50,530 nucleotides of DNA from Lachnospiraceae bacterium (GTDB lineage: Bacteria; Bacillota; Clostridia; Lachnospirales; Lachnospiraceae). The notes below the pieces were generated by a model, which was not told the DNA's origin, searched no databases, and worked only from the letters and a program-made list of their open reading frames with translations. The translations under genes and the position numbers were made by a program. Shown here one piece after another: positions 27,091-48,234 of the stretch; position 1 is the first letter of the stretch, and every line of letters begins with the position of its first letter. Location of the stretch: contig JAIKXM010000011.1 in assembly GCA_024684085.1 (NCBI GenBank), forward strand, positions 1-50,530. The letters run 5' to 3'.

Positions 27091-27118
27091 CATCTTCTCC
27101 ATTTTCATAAAAACGTTT

Positions 27119-27260
27119 TTACAGTTACTAAATAAATAGAATGTCGCTTGCGACATTCTTGCGCCGAGCGCGTATGCTTCAGCATTATCTACCTTTCGCG
27201 CGAGTGCGTATGCTTCACATCTGCCTTTCGCGCCCTCACACTTCTCAATAGTATTATTAA
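27119..27260. other. Structured leader DNA of the surface protein gene
   Basis: The expected 5' leader of the surface protein mRNA. It holds a 9-bp perfect hairpin GAATGTCGC-TT-GCGACATTC at 27139-27158 and two imperfect direct repeats with GCGTATGCTTCA (near 27170 and 27205), each followed by CCTTTCGCGC-like sequence. It is more GC-rich than the DNA on either side. No coding sequence is evident. Confidence 0.45.
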
Positions 27261-27290
27261 ATATACTTACTTTCAAGTGGATAATTGTCC

Positions 27291-27308
27291 CAAATAGTGG
27301 ACTATTTG
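27291..27308. promoter_or_regulatory. Operator-like palindrome at the surface gene transcription start
   Basis: CAAATAGT-GG-ACTATTTG: 8-bp arms with a 2-bp centre, lying just downstream of the candidate -10 box (27318-27323) on the minus strand. A protein bound here would block transcription of the surface protein gene. Confidence 0.5.
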
Positions 27309-27317
27309 CCAATCTAT

Positions 27318-27431: not shown

Positions 27432-28127
27432 TTAATTCTCTCTAACGATCAAAAGAGCCCCCCGGTTAACGCTGACTCTCGACGGCCTTCCGCAGAACTC
27501 ATTGCTGACACCGAGTGCTACATCATTGACCATATCGCCTTCATACTCATAACGAAGCCCCTTAATCTTAACCCCGGAAGCTACGTCCGAAAGAGCCATT
27601 ACAGATATCATTCCTCTTTGATCTTCATCATATTCCAAGCCGCCATTGTACAGCACCTGCATCACGGTATTCTCCGAATACATTCTGAGAGTCACTCCTC
27701 TTTTTGCATGGAATAGCATCAACTGGATATTGGCAAAAGTGTGGTCTTCACGCCTGCCACCGATTCCACCGAATATATCTGCAGATTCACAACCGGCTTC
27801 GATCGCACATCTAACCGCAAGAGCCATATCGGTATCATCCTTAACGGTACTGACTCTTACTACCCTTGTGTCACCGACATATTCCTCTTTGTATTCACCC
27901 GGCTTAAGATCATCCATATCCCCCTCTCTTAGCTGACCCTGCATTTCATGAGTCGAATCCATATCACCCACGAAGCAGTCGGGTGTTATGCCATTGCGGA
28001 TAAAAAAGCCTATTCCGGCGTCAACTGCGATAGTATAATTCTCTTTATTCCTGAGGGATCCAAGTAACTTCTCGGATTCACTTCCCACAGGAGCAGCTCC
28101 TACAAGCACTGCAATCTTCTGTCCCAT
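27432..28127 (-). CDS. thiN: Thiamine pyrophosphokinase
   Basis: Transfers pyrophosphate from ATP to thiamine to make thiamine diphosphate. 231 residues with the family landmarks: VDAGIGFFIRNGITPDCFVGDMDS in the N-terminal catalytic half (given here only as the start and end of the block, about residues 36-58), KDDTDMALAVRCAIE and IFGGIGGRREDHTFANI, and a beta-rich C-terminal thiamine-binding half. GGGAGG precedes the ATG. It is 21 bp downstream of the last glycosyltransferase gene and is likely carried on the polysaccharide transcript, although its function is unrelated. Confidence 0.94.
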   Translation of the reverse strand: MGQKIAVLVGAAPVGSESEKLLGSLRNKENYTIAVDAGIGFFIRNGITPDCFVGDMDSTHEMQGQLREGDMDDLKPGEYKEEYVGDTRVVRVSTVKDDTDMALAVRCAIEAGCESADIFGGIGGRREDHTFANIQLMLFHAKRGVTLRMYSENTVMQVLYNGGLEYDEDQRGMISVMALSDVASGVKIKGLRYEYEGDMVNDVALGVSNEFCGRPSRVSVNRGALLIVREN

Positions 28128-28148: not shown

Positions 28149-30107
28149 CTACCTCAGAGAATAGTCGCTCCTGTCCAAAGAGAAATTGATATTGTAATAA
28201 GGATCGCCGGCCTCAAGTTCTTTCTTCCACTTGTCTCTGAAGTGCTCACTCTCCCGGTTGTAACGCTCGGCCTTCTCGCCATTATCATCAAGGCCTCTGC
28301 TTATCGATTCATAATGATACAATTCCGCAAAAGGAGTGAACACATTTAGATATCCTGCTGCCCTCAGCTTAAGACAGAGATCCACATCATTAAGACTTAT
28401 CTCGAAGCTCTCGTCCAGTCCGCCGACTTCATCAAACTTCGCCCTGCTTACCATGAGGCACGCACCTGTCACGGCTGTCACATTCTGGGCATAACAGAGT
28501 CTTCCCATATAACCAAGGTTGTCATATGACTTACCGTAATGCGTATGCCCTGCCGTTCTGTGAGCACCGAGTCCGATCACAACTCCCGCATGCTGTATCG
28601 TCTTATCGGGATAGAGAAGCTTGGCACCGACAGCCGCAACATCCGGTCTCTGCGCATACATAAGCAATTCTTCTATCCAGTTAACGCTTATCACCTGCGT
28701 ATCGTTATTAAGGAGGATCAGATACTCACCTTTTGCATATCCGATACCGTAATTATTGACGGCCGAATAATTGAAGTTTCCTTCATATCTGACAACTCTG
28801 ATCTTATCATTCTGTATCTCATCATAATAATCGAAGATCTCCTTATCCTCGGAATTATTCTCGACTATTATGATCTCATAATTATCGTAAGTGGTCTTAT
28901 CTCTTATGGATTCGATACATCGCTTCAGATCATCCTTATGATCCTTATTGGGGATGATGATCGACACCATCGGATTGCCTTTGATCTCATAACTGATCCT
29001 GAATATAGTCTCAAAAGCTCTCGTGCTTGTGATCTTAAAATTCTCAAAACCGTGGGCCTTAAGATGGTCGGCAACCGCACCTCTCGCCGCCTCGATCGCG
29101 TAACTCTTGGCACTAATATCACTTGCCACACTTCCTGCATGACTGCGCCAATAATATAAGAGCCTCGGTACATGCACGATACACTTAGCCCTGTCCGTAA
29201 GCCTTAAGATCATATCATGATCCTGACTTCCGTCAAATCTTGTCCTGAACAGCTCAGTTCCCTCAAGAAGTTCTCTTGAGAAACAGCTGAAGTGACAGAT
29301 ATAATTATTTGCTCTGAGATTATCTATCGCATAGTCCGGTTTGAAATGCATTGTGATCATCTTATCGATGCTTCCGTTATGGAAAGTAGTCTCATCACAA
29401 TAGATATAATCCGCATTTTTCTCATTGATGACCTTCACATATTCATAGAGAACGGAAGGATGAAGAATATCATCATGATCAAAAAGAGCGATGTACTCGC
29501 CTGTTGACATGGCGTAGCATCTGTTGGTATTGCCCGATATTCCTTCATTGGATTCAAGCTTCATATACTTGATCCGCTCATCAGCCTTAGCTTTCTCCAT
29601 GCAGTACTCACCGACAAAAGAATGCTCTTCGTCCGAGCCGTCAGCGAGACACAACTCCCAGTTATGATAAGTCTGATATTCAACCGACTCTATCATCTCT
29701 TTTAAGAATATCATCGGAGTATTGTACAGCGGAACAAGGATACTTATCAAAGGCATCCTCTCAAATACCGCTTCCTCTTCTTCTTTTCTTCTTACCGCAT
29801 CGGGAAAGCTCTTTGTTCCGTATGACTTGCCGGCCTTCTTCTCATGGATCTTATGAGCAAGCTTCGCCTTGAAGCCTCTGAATCCGCCCAGTCCCTTGAT
29901 CCTCTTCATCAGTCGTGCCGACCTAAGCATCATATCCCTGACAGGCTTGGTATGCTTCCAGAGAGGATTATTATGTATTCGCTCAAGCCGGAAATTAAGC
30001 ATGGCATTAGCTTCCTCAAGTTCGGCCACTTTTGCAATATATTCATTACATTTCTTATGTTCCGCTTCGTACAATTCCTTGTAGTCGCGTACTTCCGTTT
30101 CGCTCAT
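28149..30107 (-). CDS. Tandem-domain GT2 glycosyltransferase
   Basis: 652 residues. A coiled coil (1-45) is followed by a basic segment, then two GT-A type GT2 domains. Domain 1 (about 118-345) has ISILVPLYNT and the DXD-type DHDD at 210-213. Domain 2 (about 378-625) has VSIIIPNKDH, the LLNNDTQ metal-binding motif near 475-480, a TGACLMVSRAKFDEVGGLDE acceptor-side segment and LYHYES. No membrane helix, so it acts at the inner face of the membrane. Two domains suggest two successive sugar transfers or a repeating extension. It is the most distal sugar enzyme of the locus; the next upstream gene is a related GT2. Confidence 0.92.
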   Translation of the reverse strand: MSETEVRDYKELYEAEHKKCNEYIAKVAELEEANAMLNFRLERIHNNPLWKHTKPVRDMMLRSARLMKRIKGLGGFRGFKAKLAHKIHEKKAGKSYGTKSFPDAVRRKEEEEAVFERMPLISILVPLYNTPMIFLKEMIESVEYQTYHNWELCLADGSDEEHSFVGEYCMEKAKADERIKYMKLESNEGISGNTNRCYAMSTGEYIALFDHDDILHPSVLYEYVKVINEKNADYIYCDETTFHNGSIDKMITMHFKPDYAIDNLRANNYICHFSCFSRELLEGTELFRTRFDGSQDHDMILRLTDRAKCIVHVPRLLYYWRSHAGSVASDISAKSYAIEAARGAVADHLKAHGFENFKITSTRAFETIFRISYEIKGNPMVSIIIPNKDHKDDLKRCIESIRDKTTYDNYEIIIVENNSEDKEIFDYYDEIQNDKIRVVRYEGNFNYSAVNNYGIGYAKGEYLILLNNDTQVISVNWIEELLMYAQRPDVAAVGAKLLYPDKTIQHAGVVIGLGAHRTAGHTHYGKSYDNLGYMGRLCYAQNVTAVTGACLMVSRAKFDEVGGLDESFEISLNDVDLCLKLRAAGYLNVFTPFAELYHYESISRGLDDNGEKAERYNRESEHFRDKWKKELEAGDPYYNINFSLDRSDYSLR

Positions 30108-30160
30108 CTACGATCCTGCCTTCACTTTATATCTTTCCTTACATATCTGTAAGACCATTT

Positions 30161-30296
30161 TCGGATTTCGATCCATCGTCTGATATCCGTTTATACGCCA
30201 TCCGGATTCCGATCCATCGCCCGATATCCGTTTATCCGCCATCCGGATTCGATCCATCACCCGATATCCGTTTATCCGTCATCCGGATTCCGATCT
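30161..30296. repeat. 40-41-bp tandem repeat between glycosyltransferase genes
   Basis: Three and a bit copies of a unit containing GATATCCG, TTTATCCGCC and ATCCGGATT then CGATCCATC. GATATCCG starts at 30182, 30223 and 30263. It fills most of the 202-bp gap between the two GT2 genes, which otherwise shows nothing but a ribosome site for the downstream gene. Confidence 0.8.
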
Positions 30297-30309
30297 GTCC
30301 TTCACCCCG

Positions 30310-32226
30310 TCATTTAACTTCAATATATCGATTGGTATATCTCTTTAATACCATCCCTGAGACAAGCCCCTCAGCCATCATGCCGACCCTGTACTTACCC
30401 TTCGGCATATCGTCCACCTGAGGATATATCCTGAAGCCGTTAAGTGCCGCCTTCTCCTCAGGATCGAGATTGATCTCAAGATCGGGTCTGTAGATCTTAT
30501 TACAAGGCATCGAATACTCTCCGCTCTCACCTTCCAGCATAAGGCTGAACTTAAGGCACGAATTATCCGATCCGGCAACAAAGGTATAGCCTCCGATATA
30601 TATATCATCTCTGTCTTCACGCTCATCCGCTTCAGGCCCGCAGAAATATCCGTAAGTCCCGCACTGCTCCAGACTGATTATCAGACAGTCATTATCCCAC
30701 TTAAGTTCCGGAGTCTTACCCAAAGGCTTCGGAACGGGTCTGTATGCATTACTGACATTCGTGTCATCTTTGTATTCGTATTCATATGTATAATTGCTGT
30801 CCAGAATATCAGCGGTAAAGTAGTCATGATAGAACGGGTCCTTGTCGTACAGATGAGGATGCTTCTTATACAAGAGGTTCCTCTCTGACTGAAGGCGTTC
30901 TATTTTCTCCTTGGACTCGTCATCACCACGGCTGAAAGACTCATAATGCCACAGGTGAGTATTGTTGACTACAACATTGAAACGCCCTTCATCAAATAGT
31001 TTAAAACATAGGTCAACATCGTTGAAGGCCACCTTCAATTCCTCATCGAATCCACCAACCAGATCGAAGTCACTGCGCTTAACAAGTAAACAGGCACCCG
31101 TAACGGCGATAACATCACGATCCATGTCATTGACATGATCGTAATACACATGATCATCCTCCTTGAACTGGAGCTTGTGAACCGGTCCCAAACGGAGGTT
31201 GGTTATACCGCAGTGCTGTATCATCTTGCTGTCGGGATAGAGTAGCTTGGCGCCGACCGCTCCCACGTGCGGAAGCGCTCCGTATGCAAGCATCTTCCTG
31301 AGCCACTTGGTATCCCTTATCTCCATATCGTCGTTTAGGAAGAGGAGATAGTCTCCGGTTGAGTGATGTGCACCTTCATTGCATATCGCTGAGAAATTGA
31401 ACTCCCTCGGAGAATAGATATACCTTATCCCCATGAAGCCCGCACCCGAACGATATGAGCCCACGATCTGCTCTATGGTCTTCTTATTATCCTCGCTGCT
31501 TCCGTTATCTATCAGAACGATCTCATATCGCACGCCGATCGTACGCTTTATAATGGATGCCAGCAGATTCTTAAGAATATCCGGATTGTCCTTTGACGGA
31601 ATGATGATGGATACAGCCTCGTCTCCTTCATACTCCGGTCTGTAACGTCTGTCATCAAACAGCGGCTTGCTGAAGTGCGTATGATACAGACAATAATCAA
31701 TATGTGACACCTGTGTCATATTCATTCCTATCGCAGTACGTACGATAAGATCATATATATCCTTACCGGGCTTTATGACCGATCCGCGGATCGCCACAAC
31801 ACTTCCCATATACAGGTAGTTAAGCAAAGTATCCGGAGACCAGTCGGGTCTGAATACGGGATTCATCCTTACAGTCTCATTGGAGTTGAACTCGTCTTCA
31901 TCTCCGTATACCACGCATACCGCAGGATCATTCGCAAAGGCTGCCTCGATCACACTGAGAGCATGTTCATCCAGCCCGTCCGTATCAGCGACGAATACAC
32001 ATATAGCCGATGTATCAAAAGAAGTATGCTCATTCACCTGCGAATAGTAGATAAGCTGAACCGGCATGTCCGATTCAACTCCCGAATTCGCGCTTCGATA
32101 TTTCTCTTCCTTGGCTCTTATCCATGTATCGTAAGAGATATATCTGCGATCCATTTCCGCATAATATTTTCTGTTCAGCCGTTCGATCATCGGCTGTCTG
32201 ATCATACTCTTTAACCCATCAAGCAT
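30310..32226 (-). CDS. GT2 glycosyltransferase with degenerate first domain and C-terminal beta domain
   Basis: 638 residues from the ATG at 32226; an in-frame TTG lies 6 bp earlier. Residues 55-195 look like a partial GT2 domain (VFVADTDG, VVYGDEDEF, FRPDWSPDTL) lacking the normal N-terminal nucleotide fold. The full GT2 domain covers about 205-440: AVSIIIPSKDN, IDNGSSEDN, the LFLNDDME metal site near 298-304, VTGACLLVKRSDFD and LWHYESFSRG. The last 130 residues are beta-rich (FCGPEADE, GKYRVGMMAEG) and resemble a small carbohydrate-recognition module, although no family is recognised. Closely similar in its GT core to the downstream enzyme, so the two probably arose by duplication. The gene end is separated from the next gene by tandem repeats. 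Confidence 0.88.
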   Translation of the reverse strand: MLDGLKSMIRQPMIERLNRKYYAEMDRRYISYDTWIRAKEEKYRSANSGVESDMPVQLIYYSQVNEHTSFDTSAICVFVADTDGLDEHALSVIEAAFANDPAVCVVYGDEDEFNSNETVRMNPVFRPDWSPDTLLNYLYMGSVVAIRGSVIKPGKDIYDLIVRTAIGMNMTQVSHIDYCLYHTHFSKPLFDDRRYRPEYEGDEAVSIIIPSKDNPDILKNLLASIIKRTIGVRYEIVLIDNGSSEDNKKTIEQIVGSYRSGAGFMGIRYIYSPREFNFSAICNEGAHHSTGDYLLFLNDDMEIRDTKWLRKMLAYGALPHVGAVGAKLLYPDSKMIQHCGITNLRLGPVHKLQFKEDDHVYYDHVNDMDRDVIAVTGACLLVKRSDFDLVGGFDEELKVAFNDVDLCFKLFDEGRFNVVVNNTHLWHYESFSRGDDESKEKIERLQSERNLLYKKHPHLYDKDPFYHDYFTADILDSNYTYEYEYKDDTNVSNAYRPVPKPLGKTPELKWDNDCLIISLEQCGTYGYFCGPEADEREDRDDIYIGGYTFVAGSDNSCLKFSLMLEGESGEYSMPCNKIYRPDLEINLDPEEKAALNGFRIYPQVDDMPKGKYRVGMMAEGLVSGMVLKRYTNRYIEVK

Positions 32227-32239
32227 CTTCAATACCCAC

Positions 32240-32384
32240 TCTTTATCTTACAGACGTATCAGCTTACCGGGTTCGTACTGAAGTAACCCTATCATCGCCT
32301 CAGTACAATACCCTCTCTTTGTCTTACAGACGTATCAGCTTACCAAGTTCATTCTGAAGCGATCTTATCATCGACTCCGTACAG
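32240..32384. repeat. 76-bp-period duplication of the methyltransferase gene 3' end
   Basis: Two copies, 32240-32308 and about 32316-32384, share CTTACAGACGTATCAGCTTACC and the following pattern. The upstream copy (in transcription) is the true end of the methyltransferase-kinase gene. The second copy lies after the stop but still reads, in one frame, as a near match to the last 19 residues including LIRL and a stop codon. Confidence 0.8.
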
Positions 32385-34372
32385 TTCCTTGTGATCATCC
32401 TGACCCTTAATCTGTTCCCGGTACTCCTTATTATATCCTTGGTCTTCACTACGATATTGGGATCGTCGTAGTAGAATACCGCCGTAACGCTATTGCCGTT
32501 TGTCACCTTCTTACCGTTGACATATACGCGCTTATTATCCTTAAGATCCAACAATTCCCCATTCAGTGATATTTCAAGTATCTCCGTCATACAGTATTCC
32601 ATACAGGGATCTATTCTCACATTAACCGTGCCACTCTCAAGCGAAGTATGGAAATCGATATAACCGTTACTGTCATAGAGGGCATCCACGAAGTAAGAAT
32701 CATCTTCATTGAAGCCTCTGCCCGTATCGGTATAGATCTGAACCTTTTTCCTGATACTGTCCTTCTCCTGCCCTGTAAGCAGTTGATCCATGGTGATCAT
32801 AGCACCGCCGATACTGTCTCTTAACTCTCCCATTGACATTCGTTTGCCGGTAACCTTCTTCTGGAAGATCGCCTCATCTTCTCTGAAGCCTTCCAGCTCA
32901 TCATTGGTAAGTGCTAACAGGCTGATCACTTCACTGTAATCGAAGCTGTTCCTGTATTCACTCTCAAGGGTATAGCAGTACAAAGCCCTGTAAGCCGTCT
33001 CCTTAACAGGTACACTCCGTTCCCTGACCCACTCATAGTCAATGGCTGTCCATTCATCCCCATCAACAAGGATATTGGAAAAAACGAGGTCCATGTCGGT
33101 TATATCACTCCCTGATCCGTAACCCGTTCTATCGATATATTCGGAAAAGAGCTTCTTAAAGCCTTCTATATCCCCTGCCAGCAGATACTCGTCAAAGAGT
33201 TCCGAAAGAGGCCTTCCTTTGACTATAGGAAATCTGACAACTCCGTCACTTATTTTTTCGCAAGGCGCAATCTTAAGTCTTCCGCCCCGGTATCGCTCCT
33301 CAAGAGCCTTATAATGTCTTACCATATCCTCCACGTGAGCATTGCACTCCTCACACAGAGCGACCTTATCCACATGATCACTGGAGATCAGGGTGCCGAT
33401 GGCATATTCATCAGAACGATCATTGGAATATCGTACATAATCAATATCCGCATCGCTTCCTATAAGGATCATATATGAATTGGAGAAAAACGGGAATTCT
33501 CCGCTCTCGACTATTCCGTCCCATGCCGTAGTCTCATCGAACAGCAACAGTCTGTCCCTGTCAAAATTGCGATAGTTATTGCACAGCTCGCCCTTTCCCG
33601 GAAGTCTGTCATCCGAGAAAAGTGTAGTCATAAACTTATAATCGGGATAAGGATAATAGAAATGATAATCTTCTATACCTGCCTTCCCGAACATCTTCTC
33701 AAATCCTGCTTTGGAGAAAGTTCTTACTCCGCCGCCATCCTTATACATCTCTATGGAACTGAAAAATGTCCCCAGATGATCTTCCCTGCAACCGGCAAAA
33801 TACTTAAGTCCGTAACGATTCTCTATAGCGATGGCAAGTCTTCCGTTCTCACCCACATGACTTCTCACTATATCAAGAAAGTCTTCAAAAGGGGTATCGC
33901 CACCTATATAGCTCTGGGCATATTCAAATACACCTATCAGAAGAACCAGATCATAGCCTCTGTCAAGATCCGGCTCAATATCCTTGAAGTTCCCTACATG
34001 TATCGTTATATTGTCGTCCTCTTCATGTCTGTAAGCATTGATAAGACTTCTCTTTCTTGAGAGATCCACACAGTCTACACGACCTGCGCGCTTAGAGAGC
34101 GCCCCTGTAACAGCTCCGCATCCGGAACCGATCTCAAGTACTTTCATATCACGGTTTATGGGAAGCCAGCGCACGATATTCTCGCGCTGTGTCGACAGAT
34201 GGTAAAAAATCGGCCAACTCTTGTTGGCCTCTATTATCTTCGGATATTCAACCTTCGAATAATTCTTGACTATATTAAGGATCTGATCTTCAACAGCGCC
34301 ATCACAATACAGATCTTCACCGCTGTAATGGTCGTAATTCAATCTTACTTTTCCAATCAATTCGTTTTCCAT
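32324..34372 (-). CDS. Methyltransferase fused to a kinase-like domain (candidate polysaccharide chain terminator)
   Basis: 682 residues. A class I SAM methyltransferase fills about 55-300: motif I is VLEIGSGCGAVTG at 78-90, with CVDLS as the acidic loop and LVLLIGVFEYA as motif IV. A second domain (about 310-520) has features of aminoglycoside-kinase-like folds: RYSNDRSDEYAIGTLI as a possible N-lobe, then D428-x4-N433 (catalytic loop) and IDYEW with Asp445 (metal-binding position). A beta-rich tail (about 555-660) ends the protein. Placed directly behind Wzt/Wzm, this order recalls WbdD, which caps O9a polymannan by phosphorylation and methylation. That role is inferred, and the kinase call rests on short motifs. 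Confidence 0.8.
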   Translation of the reverse strand: MENELIGKVRLNYDHYSGEDLYCDGAVEDQILNIVKNYSKVEYPKIIEANKSWPIFYHLSTQRENIVRWLPINRDMKVLEIGSGCGAVTGALSKRAGRVDCVDLSRKRSLINAYRHEEDDNITIHVGNFKDIEPDLDRGYDLVLLIGVFEYAQSYIGGDTPFEDFLDIVRSHVGENGRLAIAIENRYGLKYFAGCREDHLGTFFSSIEMYKDGGGVRTFSKAGFEKMFGKAGIEDYHFYYPYPDYKFMTTLFSDDRLPGKGELCNNYRNFDRDRLLLFDETTAWDGIVESGEFPFFSNSYMILIGSDADIDYVRYSNDRSDEYAIGTLISSDHVDKVALCEECNAHVEDMVRHYKALEERYRGGRLKIAPCEKISDGVVRFPIVKGRPLSELFDEYLLAGDIEGFKKLFSEYIDRTGYGSGSDITDMDLVFSNILVDGDEWTAIDYEWVRERSVPVKETAYRALYCYTLESEYRNSFDYSEVISLLALTNDELEGFREDEAIFQKKVTGKRMSMGELRDSIGGAMITMDQLLTGQEKDSIRKKVQIYTDTGRGFNEDDSYFVDALYDSNGYIDFHTSLESGTVNVRIDPCMEYCMTEILEISLNGELLDLKDNKRVYVNGKKVTNGNSVTAVFYYDDPNIVVKTKDIIRSTGNRLRVRMITRNCTESMIRSLQNELGKLIRL

Positions 34373-34546
34373 ATCTGCTGTTCCTTTCGGAAAAACTAAA
34401 GGATTATCATTCCCTGTCTTTCTTCATTATTCCTATCCCTCTGTGATGATCACTCATACACCGCAGGATACTTTTCACCCTCACTGAAAGGGATATCTTC
34501 CATACTCACCGCAGGATGTTATCATGCAGCACTTGCCTTCTTTGAT

Positions 34547-35830
34547 TCACTGTACAGTGATCCTGGAATTCATATCAAAATAACCGACGGTGTCTTTATC
34601 TGACACTACTGTCAGATTAATAACATCATATAACCTGTGATAGACCTGAAAATTATCCCTCTCATATCCGGTCACGCCGAAAGAGAGAAGATACTCTCCG
34701 CCCTGAAGGTTCATATCCTGACTGAACGTAACCTTCTTGACGTCCCCCTTCTTAACAGGTTGTAAGAAGGCCTTCTCATACATGGTATTGGTTCCTGTTA
34801 TCTCAGTACCCTTCACATTTTTAATAGTAAATGCAAAAATGGGGGCAGCTATATCCTCGGTAAAATCGACCGTGAAATTGATCGAGAACGACTCACCCTT
34901 GATGATCGCCGTAGTCTTAACTCCATTCCTGTCGGTCAGATAATAATCATGTATATTTGCAGCTCCCGTGCCGTATTCAAGCGTATTGGGATTGACTCCG
35001 TCCACACTTCCGTTATCCGTTGAAGCACGTTCCGCAAGTGCTTTGATATCTTCATCATCAAGCAGACTCTCACTGCTGTCCGGTATCCTGTACTGACCTA
35101 CCAGAACCTGCTTATATGCATCGATTATCTCTTTGGGCTCACCCTCGTTGAGCTTAACACCCTTATTGAGCAATACGACCCTGTCGCAATATTTTGCGAT
35201 GCTTCCAAGATCGTGGCTTACGAAGAGAATCGTCTTGCCCTGCTTCTTGAACTCCTCGAACTTATGATAACACTTAGCCTGGAAGAAGACATCACCTACG
35301 GAAAGAGCCTCATCCACGATCAGTATCTCGGGATCGATATTGATGGCCACCGCAAAAGCCAGTCTCACAAACATACCACTGGAATAAGTCTTACAGGGCT
35401 GATAGACATAATCACCTATATCGGCAAATTCAAGTATCGAATCAAGCCTCTCATCTATCTCCTTACGTGAGAATCCCATCATCGTGCCGTTAAGATAGAT
35501 GTTCTCTATTCCGTTGTATTCCATATTGAATCCGGCACCGAGTTCGAGAAGAGCGGATATCCTTCCGTTAACGGTAAGATCACCTGACGTGGGTGTCAGA
35601 ACTCCTGTAATGATCTTAAGTATGGTCGACTTACCGGAACCGTTCGTACCTATGATGCCGACAGACTCGCCCTTATATACCGTAAGATCCACATTCGTTA
35701 ATGCGTAATGATCCTTGCTCCTCCGCTTATTGCCCGGAAGAAGTGCCTCCCTGAAACGGTCGGAAGGCTTATTATATAATCTGTATATTTTTGTAATATT
35801 ATCAGCCTTAATGGCTATCTCTTTATTCAT
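34547..35830 (-). CDS. wzt: Polysaccharide ABC exporter ATPase with C-terminal Wzt-type domain
   Basis: 427 residues. The ATPase (1-245) has Walker A GTNGSGKST at 61-69, the shortened signature YSSGM at 149-153, Walker B LIVDEA near 169-175 and the switch His206. Residues about 285-427 form a beta-sandwich like the Wzt C-terminal domain that binds the end of the polymer in O8/O9a exporters; TagH-type teichoic acid ATPases lack this domain. It works with the adjacent permease to flip a lipid-linked polymer across the membrane. A 14-bp palindrome TCACTGTACAGTGA overlaps its stop codon. The gap to the methyltransferase gene (174 bp) holds a short repeated CCGCAGGAT motif. Confidence 0.94.
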   Translation of the reverse strand: MNKEIAIKADNITKIYRLYNKPSDRFREALLPGNKRRSKDHYALTNVDLTVYKGESVGIIGTNGSGKSTILKIITGVLTPTSGDLTVNGRISALLELGAGFNMEYNGIENIYLNGTMMGFSRKEIDERLDSILEFADIGDYVYQPCKTYSSGMFVRLAFAVAINIDPEILIVDEALSVGDVFFQAKCYHKFEEFKKQGKTILFVSHDLGSIAKYCDRVVLLNKGVKLNEGEPKEIIDAYKQVLVGQYRIPDSSESLLDDEDIKALAERASTDNGSVDGVNPNTLEYGTGAANIHDYYLTDRNGVKTTAIIKGESFSINFTVDFTEDIAAPIFAFTIKNVKGTEITGTNTMYEKAFLQPVKKGDVKKVTFSQDMNLQGGEYLLSFGVTGYERDNFQVYHRLYDVINLTVVSDKDTVGYFDMNSRITVQ

Positions 35831-35865
35831 TCAGTAACAATGCTCCCTGATAAAGTCAAGACCCT

Positions 35866-36660
35866 CTACAGTACGTCTGCAAAATGAGGTTTCAGCTTCT
35901 CGAATATCCTTACTCCAAGGATCATAATGATCAATGTCACGATCCAGAAGTACAGGGTCTGTCCCATATCTTCCCAGAAGAATGCAGCCGATGTTACGGC
36001 ATTTCTGTAACCGCTTACCACATAGACCAACGGATTAAGGCTTATTATCTTAGCGGCTGTGGTACCTATGGACTCGATATTCCACAGAATGGGTGTAGCC
36101 CACATCCCAAGCTGAAGACATATTCCGATGATCTGTGCTATATCTCTGAAGAAGACCATTACGGCCGATGTAATATATGCCATTCCCAGCACCAGTATAA
36201 AAGTGCACAGACTGTAGTATGGCAGCTGAAGCCAGTAGAGGCTCGGCGTATAACCGTAGATAACAGACATTATGAGCATGACCACCATGAAGAACAAATG
36301 AATATAGATGGCGGCCACTACCTTGATAAGCGGAAGTATACTTACATTGAACACGACTTTCTTAACAAGATACGTATATCTTACCAGTGCGCTCGTTCCC
36401 TGAGTCAGCGCCTCGCTGAAGAAGAACCACGGCACAAGACCCGCTGTAAGGAACATTACGTAAGGCATTGAAGTCGCCCTCGGTCCGCTCTGGGCTCCCG
36501 CGCCCATGATCACATCAAAGACGATGTAATACATCGCGATGGTCACGACCGGCTGGATCATTGCCCAGACAGCGCCAAGATACGATCCCGCATATCGCTC
36601 TTTGAAATCATTCGCAGCCAGAGTCCATATTAAATTCCTGTTTTTCCATATATCCTTCAT
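35866..36660 (-). CDS. wzm: Polysaccharide ABC exporter permease
   Basis: 264 residues, ABC-2 type, with six predicted membrane helices (for example TIAMYYIVFDVIMGAG, FLTAGLVPWFFFSEAL, FFMVVMLIMSVIYG, ILWNIESIGTTAAKI). It begins with the family opening NLIWTLAANDFKERYAGSYLG. It forms the membrane channel for the Wzt ATPase encoded 35 bp downstream. The start overlaps the end region of rfbC (7-bp gap), so translation is probably coupled. Confidence 0.95.
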   Translation of the reverse strand: MKDIWKNRNLIWTLAANDFKERYAGSYLGAVWAMIQPVVTIAMYYIVFDVIMGAGAQSGPRATSMPYVMFLTAGLVPWFFFSEALTQGTSALVRYTYLVKKVVFNVSILPLIKVVAAIYIHLFFMVVMLIMSVIYGYTPSLYWLQLPYYSLCTFILVLGMAYITSAVMVFFRDIAQIIGICLQLGMWATPILWNIESIGTTAAKIISLNPLVYVVSGYRNAVTSAAFFWEDMGQTLYFWIVTLIIMILGVRIFEKLKPHFADVL

Positions 36661-36667
36661 ATAGAGA

Positions 36668-37228
36668 TCAAAGTCCTCTTTCTGCCTTATATTCTCTGAA
36701 GCTCATCCTGTCTCTGTCCTTGTCGGACAATATAACTTCAATTCCCTCAAGAGGCCATTCAACTCCTATATCGGGATCATTGTATGCGATACCGCCCTCA
36801 TCATTGGGATACCAGAAATCATCTATCTTATAGCAAAATTCAGCATAATCACTGAGTACTGTATATCCATGTGCAAAACCGGCCGGAATGAAGAACTGCT
36901 TCTTATTCTCCGCACTGAGAACTTCCGCATGCCAGCAACCGAATGTCGGACTGCCTTCTCTTAAGTCAACAGCCACATCATATACCTCACCTACGATAGC
37001 TCTTACGAGCTTGCACTGAGGATGCTCGATCTGGAAGTGAAGTCCCCTTACCACTCCCTTTTTGGATGCCGACTGATTGTCCTGCACGAATTTGACATCT
37101 ATTCCAGCCTCACTGAATTCTCTGTAATTGTAGGTCTCCATGAAATAACCTCTGCTGTCTCCGTATACAGCGGGCGTTATTATCTTAAGTCCTTCTATTT
37201 CACATGTCTCAACCTTGATCCTGCCCAT
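36668..37228 (-). CDS. rfbC: dTDP-4-dehydrorhamnose 3,5-epimerase
   Basis: 186 residues, cupin fold. Conserved parts include DSRGYFMETYN, FVQDNQSAS, RGLHFQ with catalytic His64, and GFAHGYTVLSD. It makes dTDP-4-keto-L-rhamnose, third step towards dTDP-L-rhamnose. The final reductase gene rfbD is not in the window. The ATG is preceded by AGGAG that is itself the last unit of a pentanucleotide repeat. It sits between the small GH25 gene and the exporter permease. Confidence 0.95.
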   Translation of the reverse strand: MGRIKVETCEIEGLKIITPAVYGDSRGYFMETYNYREFSEAGIDVKFVQDNQSASKKGVVRGLHFQIEHPQCKLVRAIVGEVYDVAVDLREGSPTFGCWHAEVLSAENKKQFFIPAGFAHGYTVLSDYAEFCYKIDDFWYPNDEGGIAYNDPDIGVEWPLEGIEVILSDKDRDRMSFREYKAERGL

Positions 37229-37235
37229 TATATCT

Positions 37236-37265
37236 CTCCTCTTCTCTTCTCTTCTATTCTATTCT
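37236..37265. repeat. Six-unit pentanucleotide repeat at the rfbC ribosome site
   Basis: Minus strand AGAAT x2, AGAAG x3, AGGAG x1, ending 7 bp before the ATG. The last unit acts as Shine-Dalgarno. Such short tandem repeats can change length by slippage, but here a change would extend the leader and leave the site-to-start distance fixed. Confidence 0.7.
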
Positions 37266-37338
37266 TATCCTTTATCAATGATCCATAATCAGTTCACTAA
37301 CGATCCGATCTACAGCCCATCTATTCTGCCTAAATATA

Positions 37339-38592
37339 CTAATCATCGCCGTCAACGGATATATAGCTCAGGTTCATATCCACACGGCCTTCGATACCGT
37401 TGATCCTTCCGGCCGATGAATACTGCCACATCTGATACTTACCTGTAAACTCCGGCTTGTCCGCGTATTCCGCAAGCCAGATATAATTATCTAATGACAG
37501 TCCTGTCATATCCAGTCGCTTATTGAACCAGTTCCTTGCCGCATATATACCGGCATCATAACCTCCGCTTCTGATAGTCTCACAGAAGGCCTGACATATC
37601 TTGGTTCTCATCCTTACCTCTACTCCGTCGGCACGACCACCGCCCGAGCCTTCGGTGTCGATGAACACCGGATAGGTAAGCTTATATTGTCTTATCAGAC
37701 TTAAGACTGCACTGGCCTCTTCAACAGCCTCAACTTCATTAACTGCCTGTGTGAAGAAGTACACGCCGACCGGTATGCCTGCATCCGCAGCCCCTCTCAT
37801 ATTCTCTGCAAAATACGGGTCCACTACGATAGCACCGCTCTTGGAACCTCTGTAACCGCAACGGATTATCGCATACTCAACACCGGCATTTTTGACCTTT
37901 TCCCAGTCGATCTCTTTGTTCCACTTGGATACATCGATTCCGAATCTGGCATTCTCATCGGTTCTTACAGAAGAACTGCCCGTTGTATCAACTGCCGCCT
38001 CATATACCTCTGTATCTTCAAGCTCTGCATCTATATCAGCTTCCGTCTTGATAAGATATGAGATATCCTTAATGGCTTTATACTCAATATCCGCCTTGAC
38101 CTGACATACGAGTTCCGAACCGGGTCCCGTATAGGCTCCGCTGTCGGTAAGTCGTATACCGTATTCTCCGGGTGTCAGTCCGTCTACATAGATGATGCCG
38201 TCCTTATCGGTATCACGATACTTGCCGGCACCGTTGATCTCTATCATAAAGGCTTCGCCCGTCACCGGTCGGCCTTTGGCATTCATGATTATGACACGAA
38301 TGTCATTCTGTATCGAAGATGCATTGAGCACCACCGCGTTATCAACTTCGGATGCGGTATAACTGCTCTCTTCCGCGTCGAAAAAAGTATTATCCGACAT
38401 CCAGGCGGTGAGATCACTGTCTTTCACACGTCCGTCTTCCTCGATTATTACGCCCACGTCCTCTTTTGGACTTTGCACACGGTTCTTTGATGAGTCTGTG
38501 AGATATCCATTATAAAACAAGACAACAAGGAATACTCCCAGCACAAAAAGCGTTACCAGAAGTAACGCTCCCTTTAACAGCTTAGAGTCCAT
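37339..38592 (-). CDS. Membrane-anchored GH25 muramidase (small form)
   Basis: 417 residues. Start at the ATG 38592 (GAGG upstream), overlapping the rfbA stop by 11 bp; a TTG 6 bp earlier is in frame. One membrane helix (6-28) anchors it, with the rest outside. A Cna-B/SpaA-like domain (about 95-165, [20 protein letters not shown] to [10 protein letters not shown]) precedes a GH25 lysozyme domain (about 215-412) with [28 protein letters not shown], the acidic [11 protein letters not shown] catalytic strand and WQYSSAG. It should cut MurNAc-GlcNAc bonds of peptidoglycan. The position inside rhamnose genes, and translational coupling to rfbA, tie it to polysaccharide assembly. It is a paralog of the C-terminal part of the 1191-residue protein at 40604. 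Confidence 0.92.
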
Positions 38593-39451
38593 TTGCAACC
38601 TCTACAAGATATTTACCGTAATCAGTCTTCATAAGGGGCTCTGCAAGTGCAAGTAACTGATCCCTTGTTATGAAGCCTCTCTTATAAGCGATCTCCTCGA
38701 TGCAAGAGATATATAAACCCTGTCTCTTCTGGAATGCGCATACGAAATCAGAAGCATCAAGCAGTGCATCATGATTACCTGTATCAAGCCATGCGAACCC
38801 TCGTCCCATAGTCTCAACACGAAGATCACCACGCTCAAGATAAGCATTGTTAACAGCGGTTATCTCGATCTCGCCTCTTGCCGAAGGCTTAACATTCTTG
38901 GCTATCTCCACTACATCGTTATCATAGAAGTACAGTCCCGGTACAGCATAATTGCTCTTGGGATGTTCGGGCTTCTCCTCGATTGAGATAGCTCTGCCTT
39001 CCTCATCGAACTCAACCACACCGTATTCTCTGGGATCTCTTACATAGTAACCGAAGATAGTCGCTCCCTTTTCTCTGGAAGCCACCTCACGCAACAGTTT
39101 GGAAAAGCTCTGTCCATAGAATATATTGTCCCCGAGAACCAAGGCGACGGGATCTTTTCCGATAAAATCCTCACCTATGATGAAGGCATCCGCAAGTCCT
39201 CTGGGTGTCTCCTGCACCGCATATTCGATCCTCAGTCCCAGCTGACTTCCGTCGCCGAGAAGCTCTCTGAATACGGGTAGGTCTCTCGGTGTCGAGATGA
39301 TAAGTATCTCTCTGATACCCGCCAGCATAAGAGTCGACAGCGGATAATATATCATCGGTTTATCATATACCGGCATGATCTGCTTGGATATGGCCTTAGT
39401 AAGGGGATAGAGTCTTGTACCTGACCCTCCCGCGAGAATAATACCTTTCAT
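38582..39451 (-). CDS. rfbA: Glucose-1-phosphate thymidylyltransferase
   Basis: 289 residues. Makes dTDP-glucose, the first step to dTDP-rhamnose. Nucleotide-binding [11 protein letters not shown] at 8-18, [20 protein letters not shown] and [11 protein letters not shown] with the metal Asp, and [22 protein letters not shown]-type region are standard for RmlA. GGAG lies 5 bp before the ATG. It overlaps the following GH25 gene. Confidence 0.97.
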
Positions 39452-39465
39452 ATAATCTCCGTCCT

Positions 39466-40551
39466 TTATCTGTTGCTATACATATCTTCGTAGTATTTCT
39501 GATAATCGCCGCTTGTGACATTCTTCATCCAGTCTTCGTGCATGAAGAACCACTTAATGGTACGGCGGATACCGTCCTTGAACATTGTCTCAGGCTCCCA
39601 GCCTATCTCGCTCTTGATCTTATCGGGAGCGATGGCATATCTTCTGTCATGTCCCTTACGGTCTTCAACATAGGTAATTAGATCCTTATTGATATATGCC
39701 TTACGCTCGTCACCGTCGGGAAGCTCCTCCTGAAGTGTCTCAAGGATGATATTGATGATCTCAATATTCTGCTTCTCATTATGTCCGCCGATATTATAAG
39801 TCTCGAAGAGACGTCCCTTCTCCTGTACCATATCGATGGCCTTGGCATGATCTTCCACAAAGAGCCAGTCCCTGACATTCTTGCCATCGCCGTATACGGG
39901 AAGCTTCTTACCCTGAAGCGCATTGTTGATGATAAGAGGAATAAGCTTCTCAGGGAACTGATAAGGGCCGTAATTATTGGAACAGTTGGTAATGTTCGCC
40001 GGGAACTTATAAGTATCCATATATGACTTAACCAGCATGTCCGAAGAAGCCTTGCTTGCCGAATAAGGGCTGTGAGGATCGTAGGGGCTTGTCTCATAGA
40101 AGAACGCCGAATCATCCTCGGGTAGAGAACCGTACACCTCATCCGTTGATACATGAAGGAACTTCTTATCAGGCTTAAATGTTCCGTCCGGAAGCTCCCA
40201 GCTTGCCTTTGCCGAGTTGAGCATTACGGCAGTTCCGAGCACATTGGTACGAACGAAGACCTCAGGATCTTTGATACTTCTGTCAACATGGCTCTCGGCC
40301 GCGAAGTGAACGACCCTGTCAATATCATACTGTTCAAAAACAGCCGCGATTGCATCCTTGTCAGTTATATCAGCTTTGATAAATACGTAATTATCTCTGT
40401 CCTCAATATCCTTGAGATTCTCAAGATTGCCCGCGTATGTCAATGCGTCCACATTGATAATACGAATAGAATCCCCGTATTTTCCGAACATATAATGAAT
40501 ATAATTGCTACCGATAAAACCGGCTCCGCCTGTTACAAGATAAGTTCTCAT
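39466..40551 (-). CDS. rfbB: dTDP-glucose 4,6-dehydratase
   Basis: 361 residues, extended short-chain dehydrogenase. NAD-binding GGAGFIGSN at 8-16, active-site Thr136-Asp137-Glu138 in HVSTDEVYG, and Tyr163/Lys167 in SPYSASK. Converts dTDP-glucose to dTDP-4-keto-6-deoxyglucose. It lies 14 bp upstream of rfbA on the same strand, and 52 bp downstream of the large GH25 gene. Confidence 0.97.
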
Positions 40552-40603: not shown

Positions 40604-43600
40604 TCAGTATCCGAGATATGAGAGGTTCATATCCACGTTACCGCTTATACCCGATACAGAACCCTTGGAAGAGTACTGCCACATATCGAATCTGCCGTTG
40701 TATGTAGGTTCGGTATTATACTGTGCAAGCCAGATCTTGCAGCCAGATAATTTGCCGGGGCTGAACTTACTTGTAAGCCAGCTCTTATTCGCATATACGC
40801 CGGGAGTATATCCGCTGTTACGGATGGTCTGGCAGTATGCGTTGATGACCTTGGTTCTGGTCGCTGCGTCTATTCCGTCGCCTCGTCCGCCACTGTCTTC
40901 CACATCAAGGAATACGGGATAAGAAATCCTGTAACCGTTGATAAGACTTATGGTCATGGAAGCTTCCTCAACAGCCTCAACTTCGTTAACGGCCTGTGAG
41001 AAGAAGTAAATACCCACCTTAAGGCCTGCTGCCGTAGCTCCCTTGATATTCTTCTTGAATGTAGGATCTTCAACGAGTGCACCTGTCTTGGAACCTCTGT
41101 AACCGCATCTTATTATTACATATGATACGCCGGAATTCTTGACAGCCTTCCAGTCAATGTTACCGTTCCACTTCGATACATCTATGCCCAATGTACCCGA
41201 ACCCTTCTGTAACACACCGTTACTGTCGAATACATATCTCGCACCCTGAATAACCTGTTCACCCGTGACCTTATTACCGTTCTTATCAAAGAAATAGGTA
41301 TTACCGTCTATCTCCTGCCATCCGGTATATATGAAGTCAACTTCTATGGTCTGCTCAATATAGAACTCAGGTCTCTTATCGGCGTAATAATCAGCCGCCG
41401 TAGCCTGCACATACTTGCCATCAACCTTCTTGAATACAGGTTCACCGTTCTTGGTCTTAAGCGTTGACTTACTGTCATACTTAGGCGTTGGTGACGGTGA
41501 TACCGAAGGTGTCGGAATCATGGTAGGCGTCGGTGTAGGACTTGGTGATACTTCCGGTGTGACAACCGGAGTAACGACCTCAGCTGTCGGAGTAGGTGTC
41601 ACAACAGGCTCGGGTGCAGCTGTCGGAGTAGGTTCACTTGGCTCCGGTGTAGGTGTCGGAACCGGTTCCGGAGTCGGTTCTTCTGACGGCGGCTCAGTTG
41701 TCTGATTCTCACCATCCTCAGTCTGAACCTCAGCTGTCGCATTCACGTTACCCACATAAGCAGTACCGACAAAATCCGACAGTCTGTAATATGCCACGTT
41801 GATATAATCCAGCTTACTCACCTTGCCGGGTTCGACGATATCCTCTAACCTGATAAGCTTATAATCCGTCTTGGTGCCGTTGGCTCTCTTGGTAGATTCA
41901 ACCCACTCAACGGTATCGGTAAGCGTTCCCTCGGTCACATTGGCCTGAGCCGTATCCTCTGCCGCCGCATTGATCTGATTCTCATTCTTGATCTCATCAG
42001 CGACATCGATCTTCTCATAATCGAGATTGGCCTTAACCTTGGCTGTCTCTATAGCGGAACTCAACATATACTTCTTACCGAGATCCGCATCGGCGAGCTC
42101 GATCATCTTGACCTTAACATCACCTGGAGCCATATTCTCAAGATATATTATTCCGTCCTTATCGCTGTCAGTTCTCGAATATGTCTTCTTATTGGCATCG
42201 GTGATCTCAACCGCAAAAGGTACTCCGCCGATAAGCTTATTGGTCTTCGCATTGGTGAACTTGATCTTAAGATCCTTCACCACGGAATTCATCACAAGCT
42301 TAACCGTAACCGTTCCGGTAACATCCGATTCGATCTCATCATATCCCGCGATCGTATATGCCTCTTCTATCTCCATCGGATCGAAGCTTAACCTTGACAT
42401 CTCCTCGATCGCTTCCGAACCTATCATTCCGAGACTCGCCATCTCAGAACCGAGTCCGTTGAAGACTTCCATATTACTCTTATTGATCTTAGCACTTGCC
42501 ACTACAAAAACAGTGGCGATAGCAACTACAGCTACAACGAAAGCCATTCCGGCAACCGCAGCATCCATCGGAGACATCTCTCTGATGATCTTGGCGAGCT
42601 TCTTGTTGAATCTGATAAGAGACTTCTGTGTTGATCTGCTCTTCTTCTTATATTCTGCGGAAGCAGTTGTAGCGGCACTCTTGGTCGCCGCTGCCATCTT
42701 CTTGCCGCCTCCGGCTACTTTCTCTTTGATGCCCTTTATCTTCTTGGATGCGACAGCATTCACGGCAACGGATGCATCGGCACCTTTCGCCTTCATGGCT
42801 GCCACTTTTTTATTCTTACCGGACTTTGGAGTCTTCTCTGACTTTCGAGATTTCTTCTTGGCCGAACGAGCCTCTGTACTTCCGGCCTTCTTGCTTGAGT
42901 GCCCCTCAGGGTAATTGCCTTCCTCAGCCTTCACGGCATGGCCTTCGGGATAGTTGCCCTCTTTTGCCTTCACGGCATGGCCTTCGGGGTAGTTGCCCTC
43001 TTTTGCCTTCACTGCATGACTTTCGGGATAGTTGCCTTCCTCTGCCTTCACGGCATGCCCTTCGGGATAGTCGCCTTCCTCTGCCTTCACTGCCTGATCT
43101 TCGTAGTAGTCAGCCGAATCAGCCTTCTTAACACGTTTTCTCTTCTTCTTAACCCTGTCACCTACCGAATATACTGCTTCTTCGGCTTCTTCGACATCTT
43201 CTTCCGCAACAGACTCTGCTGTCTCAGCCTTACTGTCTAAGGCTGCGCCGGATACAATTGCTCCGACGCCTCCCGCAATCGCAGCCGCTCCGGTAGCTGC
43301 CTTAGCCACCGTCTCAGTCTCCGCATCGCCGACCGCGTCCGGAATATTGATGAACATATCATCCTCACCGGCCTTAAGCAATTCATCGATAGTAAGAATA
43401 TGCTCTTCATTCTTCCTGCCTCGTCTGCCCGAACCCGATCTGCGTCTGCCATACTCCTCTTCTCCGGAATCTATGGCATCATATGCACTGATCTTACCTG
43501 CTACGTCCTTATCGTAAGATCTTCTGCCGGAAGACTTCTTAGCAGATGTATCTGCTGCCTTCGCATCGTCGGATGCATCCAGATCAATAAAACCATCCGG

Positions 43601-44179
43601 AAACAGCATCATCGTATCGAATTCCGTTACTTCTTCAGAATTGGCAGTATCTGTCTGTTCATCTTCTGTCGCCTTATCCGATGTCTCCGAATGAACTTCC
43701 CTGCTCTTCTTCCTCTCGGGAACAGCCGTAACGCCATCATCGAATAAGTCATCATCGAAGAAATAATCAGCCGCGTCGCTGTTAACCGAATCGCTTATAT
43801 ACAGTCCGTCATCCTCTTCGAATCTGTCATCGTACTTGCTGTCGAATTCAGTGTCGGCCATTTTTCTCCTAAGGACACTTCTTACGCCTTCACTAACAAA
43901 TTCATCATCATCATCCGAATCGTCATCATTCTTCTTGGCCATCTTAAGAAGCTTAGCCGCAGGATTCTCTTTTTTATCTTCTTTGTCGTAAAAATGCTTG
44001 CTCCTCTTTGCGTCTTCCACGTAGACGCTTCCAAAATCAGAGAGATCAAAAGCTGATGCATCAAAGGCAAAGGTGTCCAGATCCGAAGCTTCACGGCTCG
44101 CTTTCTCTATCCTCTCCTCACGCTTCCTTGCATCATATGAATCTCTCAAAACAGTGATCGACTTTTTCTCTTCGCTCAT
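40604..44179 (-). CDS. Giant GH25 muramidase with 540-residue cytoplasmic tail
   Basis: 1191 residues and no signal peptide. Residues 1-535 are low-complexity, first acidic then very basic (Lys/Ala-rich 430-530), with five 13-residue repeats of the HAVKAEEGNYPEG type (361-427). One membrane helix lies at 540-564, so this large N-terminal region should be cytoplasmic. Outside are a Cna-B/SpaA-like domain (about 620-715), a 60-residue Pro/Thr linker with TPTP runs (828-900), one choline/glucan-binding type repeat (WQEIDGNTYFFDKNGNKV, about 954-992) and a GH25 lysozyme domain (997-1191: [28 protein letters not shown]). It has its own good promoter and is the first gene of the polysaccharide locus. 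Confidence 0.9.
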   Translation of the reverse strand: MSEEKKSITVLRDSYDARKREERIEKASREASDLDTFAFDASAFDLSDFGSVYVEDAKRSKHFYDKEDKKENPAAKLLKMAKKNDDDSDDDDEFVSEGVRSVLRRKMADTEFDSKYDDRFEEDDGLYISDSVNSDAADYFFDDDLFDDGVTAVPERKKSREVHSETSDKATEDEQTDTANSEEVTEFDTMMLFPDGFIDLDASDDAKAADTSAKKSSGRRSYDKDVAGKISAYDAIDSGEEEYGRRRSGSGRRGRKNEEHILTIDELLKAGEDDMFINIPDAVGDAETETVAKAATGAAAIAGGVGAIVSGAALDSKAETAESVAEEDVEEAEEAVYSVGDRVKKKRKRVKKADSADYYEDQAVKAEEGDYPEGHAVKAEEGNYPESHAVKAKEGNYPEGHAVKAKEGNYPEGHAVKAEEGNYPEGHSSKKAGSTEARSAKKKSRKSEKTPKSGKNKKVAAMKAKGADASVAVNAVASKKIKGIKEKVAGGGKKMAAATKSAATTASAEYKKKSRSTQKSLIRFNKKLAKIIREMSPMDAAVAGMAFVVAVVAIATVFVVASAKINKSNMEVFNGLGSEMASLGMIGSEAIEEMSRLSFDPMEIEEAYTIAGYDEIESDVTGTVTVKLVMNSVVKDLKIKFTNAKTNKLIGGVPFAVEITDANKKTYSRTDSDKDGIIYLENMAPGDVKVKMIELADADLGKKYMLSSAIETAKVKANLDYEKIDVADEIKNENQINAAAEDTAQANVTEGTLTDTVEWVESTKRANGTKTDYKLIRLEDIVEPGKVSKLDYINVAYYRLSDFVGTAYVGNVNATAEVQTEDGENQTTEPPSEEPTPEPVPTPTPEPSEPTPTAAPEPVVTPTPTAEVVTPVVTPEVSPSPTPTPTMIPTPSVSPSPTPKYDSKSTLKTKNGEPVFKKVDGKYVQATAADYYADKRPEFYIEQTIEVDFIYTGWQEIDGNTYFFDKNGNKVTGEQVIQGARYVFDSNGVLQKGSGTLGIDVSKWNGNIDWKAVKNSGVSYVIIRCGYRGSKTGALVEDPTFKKNIKGATAAGLKVGIYFFSQAVNEVEAVEEASMTISLINGYRISYPVFLDVEDSGGRGDGIDAATRTKVINAYCQTIRNSGYTPGVYANKSWLTSKFSPGKLSGCKIWLAQYNTEPTYNGRFDMWQYSSKGSVSGISGNVDMNLSYLGY
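42898..43099. repeat. 39-bp coding tandem repeat
   Basis: About five copies of a 39-bp unit (13 codons) within the cytoplasmic tail of the GH25 protein. Copies are nearly identical at the DNA level, which points to recent expansion or ongoing homogenisation. In frame, so copy changes would not disrupt the protein. Confidence 0.85.
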
Positions 44180-48177: not shown

Positions 48178-48234
48178 CTCGTACCACTCCTCATACTTAA
48201 TTCTTTTGCGCAGACAACGCACGATGCTTCATAT

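Follow-up and report, generated by a model that had tools for sequence, protein, structure and literature searches.

Introduction

In Escherichia coli O9a, WbdD adds first a phosphate and then a methyl group to the end of the mannan (PMC3482155). WbdD of the O9/O9a system carries a methyltransferase followed by a kinase in a single chain and is encoded beside a Wzt with a C-terminal domain of the cap-reading type. Here, we describe a comparable locus of a Lachnospiraceae bacterium, lying in a stretch of 50,530 nucleotides (contig JAIKXM010000011.1 of assembly GCA_024684085.1, positions 1 to 50,530; hereafter, the window), in which a 682-residue methyltransferase-kinase protein is encoded next to the export transporter genes wzt and wzm. 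Reasoning by analogy, we give a probability of about 0.73 to the reading that this locus is a chain-terminating methyl-phosphate capping system of the type described for Klebsiella O7, functionally similar to WbdD.

Among characterised enzymes, the one that comes closest to this protein, when compared through homologues and published residue numbers, is the Klebsiella pneumoniae O7 terminator, the N-terminal part of ORF6-O7. As described in PMC11231755, ORF6 comprises a methyltransferase, an unannotated 223-residue kinase, an immunoglobulin (Ig)-like carbohydrate-binding module, a coiled coil, and two GT2 modules. The same source reports that ORF6 makes a 3-methyl-phosphate on terminal rhamnopyranose (Rhap) in vitro, and that its D441A variant yields no product and does not restore the exported polysaccharide. 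The orthologues of the O7 terminator named there, each of which has a coiled coil, belong to the alpha- and gammaproteobacteria and to the cyanobacteria, and a term search of the main text found none of the terms Clostridia, Firmicutes, Bacillota, or Gram-positive.

A Gram-positive precedent for capping without a kinase exists in WsaE, the terminator of the S-layer rhamnan of Geobacillus stearothermophilus, which combines a methyltransferase with two glycosyltransferase domains and makes a 2-O-methyl cap (PMC2943079). The cap-reading side is illustrated by the carbohydrate-binding domain of Aquifex aeolicus Wzt, a C-terminal domain alignable with that of the window Wzt, in which Trp362 stacks on a 3-O-methyl cap and a Trp-to-Leu exchange all but eliminates binding (PMC9445017). 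For Clostridia, we found no description of a methyl-phosphate capping checkpoint in the open-licence literature of PubMed Central (subscription papers and preprints lay outside this search).

Domain organization of the 682-residue protein

The gene of the predicted chain terminator occupies positions 32324..34372 on the minus strand, the strand of all genes and domains given below by window coordinates joined with two dots, and has AAAGGA 9 bases before its ATG. It is delineated by its open reading frame (ORF), a 32-member alignment of fusion proteins, and an AlphaFold model, whose mean predicted local distance difference test score is 87.6 for the full-length protein and 88.4 for the kinase domain modelled alone. 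Residues 1-305 (33458..34372) correspond to a class I methyltransferase, matched by Pfam Methyltransf_12 (2.3e-07), Methyltransf_23, and Methyltransf_25, with the S-adenosylmethionine (SAM) motif I, VLEIGSGCGAVTG, at residues 78-90, where E80-G82-G84 fits the E/DxGxGxG motif of methyltransferases. A kinase-like domain follows at residues 306-535 (32768..33457) and a beta-rich domain at residues 540-665 (32378..32755), a possible carbohydrate-binding module whose modelled strands span residues 545-663. In L017-L019, L021-L023, L025-L027, L058-L060, and L064, the methyltransferase (about 305 residues) and the C-terminal half are neighbouring separate ORFs, which places the domain boundary near residues 305-310.

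Within the window protein, Pfam matched nothing across residues 235-682; for the 32 aligned relatives, it listed no kinase family at E 0.1. Matches of residues 576-655 to dihydrolipoyl dehydrogenase (best E 0.00066 for the sequence, 0.045 for the stretch) were taken as chance. The linker between the kinase and the beta-rich domain has 17 residues in the window protein and 7-42 across the 32 members; in L042, L044-L048, L050-L052, L054, L056, L057, L065, and L066 it is 24-42 residues long, compared with 7-20 in the others, and often charged, and may form a short helical spacer whose length varies.

A first-pass annotation of this DNA had pointed to a kinase-like part of the chain, and three approaches support a kinase fold for residues 305-520. 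In a search of the PDB sequence set, a profile of 35 kinase domains matched protein kinases best (tyrosine-protein kinase, 1.6e-4; JAK1, 1.7e-4); the modelled domain shows a kinase-like order of elements; and among the 50 Foldseek matches listed for the kinase-only model, Rio2 and APH(2'') lead and 37 bear titles naming a kinase or phosphotransferase (Rio, APH, Mph, FGFR2, EGFR, and others). The remaining 13 of those listed (Cph001, KAE1-BUD32, pre-40S chains, MSMEG_1954) presumably have a kinase fold as well. The catalytic loop and metal site, D428 to D445 (D-x4-N ... IDYEW), are encoded at 33038..33091, and K336, H346, D428, N433, and WTAID445YEW are invariant in 32/32 aligned fusions. Across 109 distinct kinase-domain strings, K336 is present in 101/101 (8 gaps), D428 in 104/109, N433 in all 109, and D445 in 108/109, a conservation of motifs that is more than chance.

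The weak profile similarity to protein kinases would suit another explanation, in which the domain is either a pseudokinase without activity or a protein kinase with a regulatory role, and the cap arises by methylation of the terminal sugar alone, as in WsaE or E. coli O8. The kinase-free O-methyl cap proposed for a Gram-positive rhamnan in PMC2943079 lends this some precedent. Set against it is the retention of the catalytic residues in nearly all of the 109 strings; together with evidence from Wzt and from one genus given below, this makes the explanation improbable in our view.

Relation to the O7 terminator and WbdD

According to PMC11231755, the O7 terminator has, like the window protein, an N-terminal methyltransferase followed by an unannotated kinase, and its locus contains wzm, wzt, and rml genes. 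The Ig-like domain after its kinase may have a counterpart in the modelled beta-rich domain that lies at the same place in the window protein. The two differ in that the O7 chain also contains a coiled coil, has two GT2 modules at its C-terminus, and belongs to a Gram-negative O-antigen locus, whereas the window protein has a Gram-positive host, no coiled-coil ruler, and separately encoded glycosyltransferases.

A Pseudomonas homologue bridges the two proteins: it has Tyr28, Tyr66, Gly91, Gly93, Glu112, and Tyr158 at the very positions reported for O7 ORF6, and Asp443 compared with the published 441. The window residues in these columns are Y22, Y57, G82, G84, D103, Y151, and D428, with Asp replacing Glu at position 103. 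A Citrobacter homologue matched the profile of the fusion alignment at E 1.4e-64 (a search of one sequence, covering positions 23-345, mostly methyltransferase), and the profile of the clostridial kinase matched both the Pseudomonas (1.2e-10) and the Citrobacter (2.5e-5) proteins. In the same kinase-profile search, there was no match to WbdD of O9 or O99. The family is thus not confined to Gram-positive bacteria, since relatives occur in Citrobacter and Pseudomonas, and a view of the fusion as special to Gram-positive bacteria was rejected.

The first-pass annotation had likened the protein to WbdD, a likeness that stands for the overall arrangement and, by prediction, for function. The order wzm-wzt-terminator-glycosyltransferase of E. 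coli O9 equals that of the window, bearing out the proposed adjacency of the three parts, and four WbdD entries top the Foldseek search with the full-length model (E 1.4e-12 to 7.1e-12, 483-524 columns), at a query TM-score of 0.19; the arrangement of the modelled domains may differ from that of WbdD. Among solved Wzt C-terminal domains, 2R5O is nearest in sequence (E 1.2e-11), and the part of it that aligns consists of E. coli HS O9 Wzt sequence, in agreement with the suggested resemblance of this domain to O9a. The gene order and the full-length fold matches, together with the shared domain order, could favour a true WbdD orthologue, endowed with WbdD's kinase and its trimeric coiled-coil chain-length ruler.

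The kinase itself does not follow this likeness. When its alignment was compared with WbdD by hhalign, only the coiled-coil region of WbdD aligned, at a probability of 0.4, compared with 63 for the methyltransferase part; WbdD was absent among the 50 kinase-only Foldseek matches listed. Past residue 489, no helix of the model exceeds 18 residues, so that a coiled-coil ruler of the O9a or O7 kind is not predicted, and the length-control role first proposed for the protein finds no support. WbdD differs further in acting on polymannose and in being a trimer with a coiled-coil ruler. Orthology was therefore rejected, given a kinase that does not align by profile with WbdD residues 211-459 and a model lacking the coiled coil, and we consider it very improbable; WbdD is best regarded as a functional analogue of the 682-residue protein, to which the O7 terminator is closer.

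Linkage to Wzt with an extended C-terminus

Wzt, the ATPase of the ABC transporter, is a 427-residue protein (34547..35830; ABC_tran 6.1e-22) with a predicted substrate-reading C-terminal domain (Wzt_C 1e-40 over residues 283-420 in Pfam; residues 285-427, 34550..34978, by comparison with 2R5O), and it is followed upstream by the export permease Wzm (35866..36660; ABC2_membrane 8.2e-14). On re-reading the sequence, the positions first reported for these genes and for the 682-residue protein, including motif I at residues 78-90, D428-x4-N433, and Asp445 in IDYEW, were all right.

A scan of named genome contigs provided 37 loci, nearly all titled Lachnospiraceae, of which 35 encode a Wzt that carries the C-terminal domain. 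The remaining two (L053 and L067), counted as misses, are short contigs that start at or just before the gene. Wzt is the next upstream listed ORF in 34/35 of these loci, with one ORF between in L048. The domain analysis covered the loci other than L173-L180.

These loci had been fetched through the terminator; therefore, we took every Wzt_C place in a sample of 246 genomes of the order as an unbiased test. The window protein matched 45 of these genomes (G069 and G190 being left out of locus fetching), and the sample holds 61 Wzt_C places in 56/246 genomes. Methyltransferase and kinase matches lie within 6 kb of 39/41 places scoring at least 130 bits, compared with 0/20 lower-scoring places (Fisher p 4e-14, a value that ignores shared descent), and the two unpaired high-scoring genomes (G041 and G242) carry the pair elsewhere. 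Among eight of the 20 low-scoring places whose neighbours were scanned with Pfam, another methyltransferase is present in L143, L145, L151, L155, and L161 and not in L142, L153, and L158. Thus, neither a missing kinase fold nor an occurrence mainly apart from an extended Wzt was found: the observation behind the first-pass annotation is confirmed, and its interpretation is partly supported. At E 1e-10, the family occurs in 18/291 genomes of a class sample and 13/348 of a phylum sample, both of which include the order of the window.

The Wzt pocket residue

The column of Aquifex Trp362, assigned to the cap pocket in PMC9445017, holds Arg399 in the window Wzt (codon at 34634..34636, read directly and placed by alignment). 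Arg occupies it in 39/39 linked Wzt_C domains, in both unlinked high-scoring exceptions, in 2R5O, and in 35/35 domains of the genome-contig loci, as well as in L125, L126, and L128-L131 of the class sample and L181 and L184 of the phylum sample. Among the 20 low-scoring domains, by contrast, 11 have Trp, nine another residue, and none Arg.

The same pattern extends to Gram-negative systems. Arg is found in E. coli HS O9, where the kinase is present, and Trp in IAI1 O8, which has the methyltransferase only; Arg is also found in O99, whose WbdD-like kinase is 41% identical, and in the Wzt proteins of Citrobacter and Pseudomonas, whose neighbouring proteins are those matched by the clostridial kinase profile. 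In O60, Shinella, and the E. coli plasmid L172 the residue is Trp and in L170 Gln, with no kinase match in the following genes tested. That the window Wzt has Arg like O9, and not Trp like O8, speaks against the protein being a pseudokinase or regulatory kinase beside a methyl-only cap.

On a tree of these domains, Arg falls into a clostridial group (41 rows, Shimodaira-Hasegawa-like approximate likelihood ratio test 100) and a Gram-negative kinase group (four rows, 91), and changes twice; a single Arg clade is not rejected (approximately unbiased test, p 0.53) when nine mostly long-branched, kinase-free rows of the 71 are removed (L162, L154, L161, L157, L155, L170, L148, L158, and L159). A tree-corrected test of the Arg-kinase association falls short of significance, the 2 independent pairs on supported branches being too few. 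Pocket residue and enzyme therefore match strikingly, on one or two events and not on dozens.

Decay of the methyltransferase in one genus

Six genomes from a single genus (L135-L140) have a methyltransferase-like ORF of 162-199 residues that has lost SAM motif I, while a protein of 1176-1178 residues retains the kinase; a scan of this protein in L136 (L136:9493-13023) also revealed RgpF and HAD hydrolase domains. The Wzt Arg is kept in 6/6. We infer that the Arg follows the phosphate and not the methyl group. A kinase and a Wzt Arg that outlast motif I also speak against a kinase domain that plays no part in the cap. In L136, a glycerophosphodiester phosphodiesterase gene (L136:6673-7494) lies between wzm and wzt.

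The surrounding locus

Across 28149-40551, the minus-strand order is rmlB, rmlA, a GH25 lysozyme gene, rmlC, wzm, wzt, the gene of the 682-residue protein, and two genes of GT2 proteins. The rml genes comprise an rmlB-like dehydratase (39466..40551; GDP_Man_Dehyd 1.3e-90), rmlA (38582..39451; NTP_transferase 5.3e-79), and rmlC (36668..37228; dTDP_sugar_isom 1.6e-69). Directly downstream of the terminator gene lies a GT2 glycosyltransferase (30310..32232; Glycos_transf_2 8.1e-18), a position taken by a GT2-type gene in many relatives, and then a second one with two GT2 stretches (28149..30107; Glycos_transf_2 9.8e-45). A thiamine pyrophosphokinase gene at 27432-28127 stands just beyond the run.

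GH25 lysozyme-like genes are present at 37339-38598, between rmlA and rmlC, and at 40604-44179, and a GH25 insertion in the rml-wzm-wzt run recurs in 12/37 genome-contig loci (L031-L040, L049, and L062). A gene of a 1177-residue protein with Listeria-Bacteroides repeats (44689-48222) adjoins one of a group II intron reverse transcriptase/maturase (RVT_1, GIIM; 48428-49576). On the other side of the locus, a sortase gene at 23354-24214, whose product scores just below the class B sortase cut-off, adjoins the gene of a 1012-residue protein (24274-27312) that has no Pfam or NCBIfam match at E 0.01.

Discussion

The mechanism that we infer from the domain make-up, the kinase fold, the active-site residues, the linkage, and the Wzt Arg/Trp pattern would run as follows. 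A rhamnose-type polysaccharide would be made on a lipid carrier in the cytoplasm, with the 682-residue protein acting as a chain terminator of the Klebsiella O7 type. Its kinase domain would phosphorylate the non-reducing terminal sugar, by analogy at O3 of rhamnose, and its methyltransferase would next methylate the terminal phosphate; capping would stop elongation, and the C-terminal domain of Wzt would read the cap. WsaE offers a parallel among Gram-positive bacteria: it shares with the window Wzm/Wzt and a rhamnan, which for the window is predicted, and its methyl cap is proposed to end the chain and to bind Wzt; it differs in that its methyltransferase is fused to two glycosyltransferases and that no kinase is named in the available portion of PMC2943079. 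Aquifex Wzt reads a 3-O-methyl sugar with Trp362 (PMC9445017), where the window Wzt has Arg399. Given a protein with no coiled-coil ruler, chain length would need another control, for instance through the beta-rich domain or through a kinetic competition of the terminator with the glycosyltransferases.

Several observations weigh against this reading. The methyltransferase-kinase pair lies near a Wzt without the C-terminal domain in four loci (L106, L107, L124, and L185), and 10/45 matched genomes of the order have no high-scoring Wzt_C; eight of these ten were retrieved, comprising L106, L107, and six genomes that have distant relatives of the protein and in which no Wzt was seen. No Wzt of this type was seen either in L108, L111, L114, L115, L117, L119-L123, L127, L132-L134, L182, or L186-L188, some of which are short contigs, and in L183 the linked Wzt has His at the pocket column. 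Within the kinase domain, the usual alpha-C glutamate is not evident, and His346 is kept in 92/101 strings. The alignment of O7-like homologues places Glu in the D445 column for Citrobacter; in the K336 column it places His for Pseudomonas, and His or Arg for Pseudomonas and L187 taken together, so that these two positions are not fixed in the wider family. Because Arg arises one or two times, its link to the kinase is not independent of descent. Finally, the acceptor sugar is deduced from the rml genes, among which rmlD was not seen in the 28 window proteins scanned with Pfam.

The distant relatives bear on a further explanation, that the protein decorates internal or side residues with methyl-phosphate or phosphate, without stopping the chain, and that Wzt reads something else. 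In L111, two copies of the methyltransferase-kinase fusion lie beside a phosphoenolpyruvate (PEP)-mutase and cytidylyltransferase protein, and L127 has a distant relative beside a LicD protein; no Wzt was seen in either locus, and the module can thus serve other phosphate decorations, the L111 fusions perhaps providing another phosphate or phosphonate decoration. For the window protein we find such a role unlikely, in view of the pairing with one subtype of Wzt C-terminal domain and of the O7 precedent, in which, according to PMC11231755, an enzyme of this kind caps the chain end and is needed for export. Among the other relatives, L106 and L107 encode a 277-280-residue protein resembling an NAD-dependent epimerase between the pair and the Wzt without a C-terminal domain, and L108 encodes a similar epimerase-like protein (Pfam Epimerase) just upstream of the pair.

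Beyond the window, we tentatively suggest a wider picture, possible although we would not count on it. In Bacillota, above all in Lachnospiraceae-type Clostridia, a ruler-less O7 terminator would serve as a general export checkpoint, and the Wzt Arg or Trp would report a phosphate or a plain methyl cap across Gram-positive and Gram-negative bacteria. In the genus with the decayed methyltransferase, a bare phosphate (or other phosphate ester), placed on the rhamnan end by the kinase with its fused RgpF-type domain for rhamnan synthesis, would be the export tag.

If the methyl-phosphate capping reading is true, many Clostridia would mark the ends of a surface polysaccharide with methyl-phosphate and verify this mark prior to export, a predicted end group that composition analysis could easily overlook. 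An unannotated kinase domain with no listed Pfam match would gain a function, the Arg or Trp of Wzt would offer a sequence rule for predicting cap chemistry from genomes, and the setting of chain length without a known coiled-coil ruler would become testable. A checkpoint of this kind is known from Gram-negative bacteria; its predicted ruler-less, clostridial form would be what is new.

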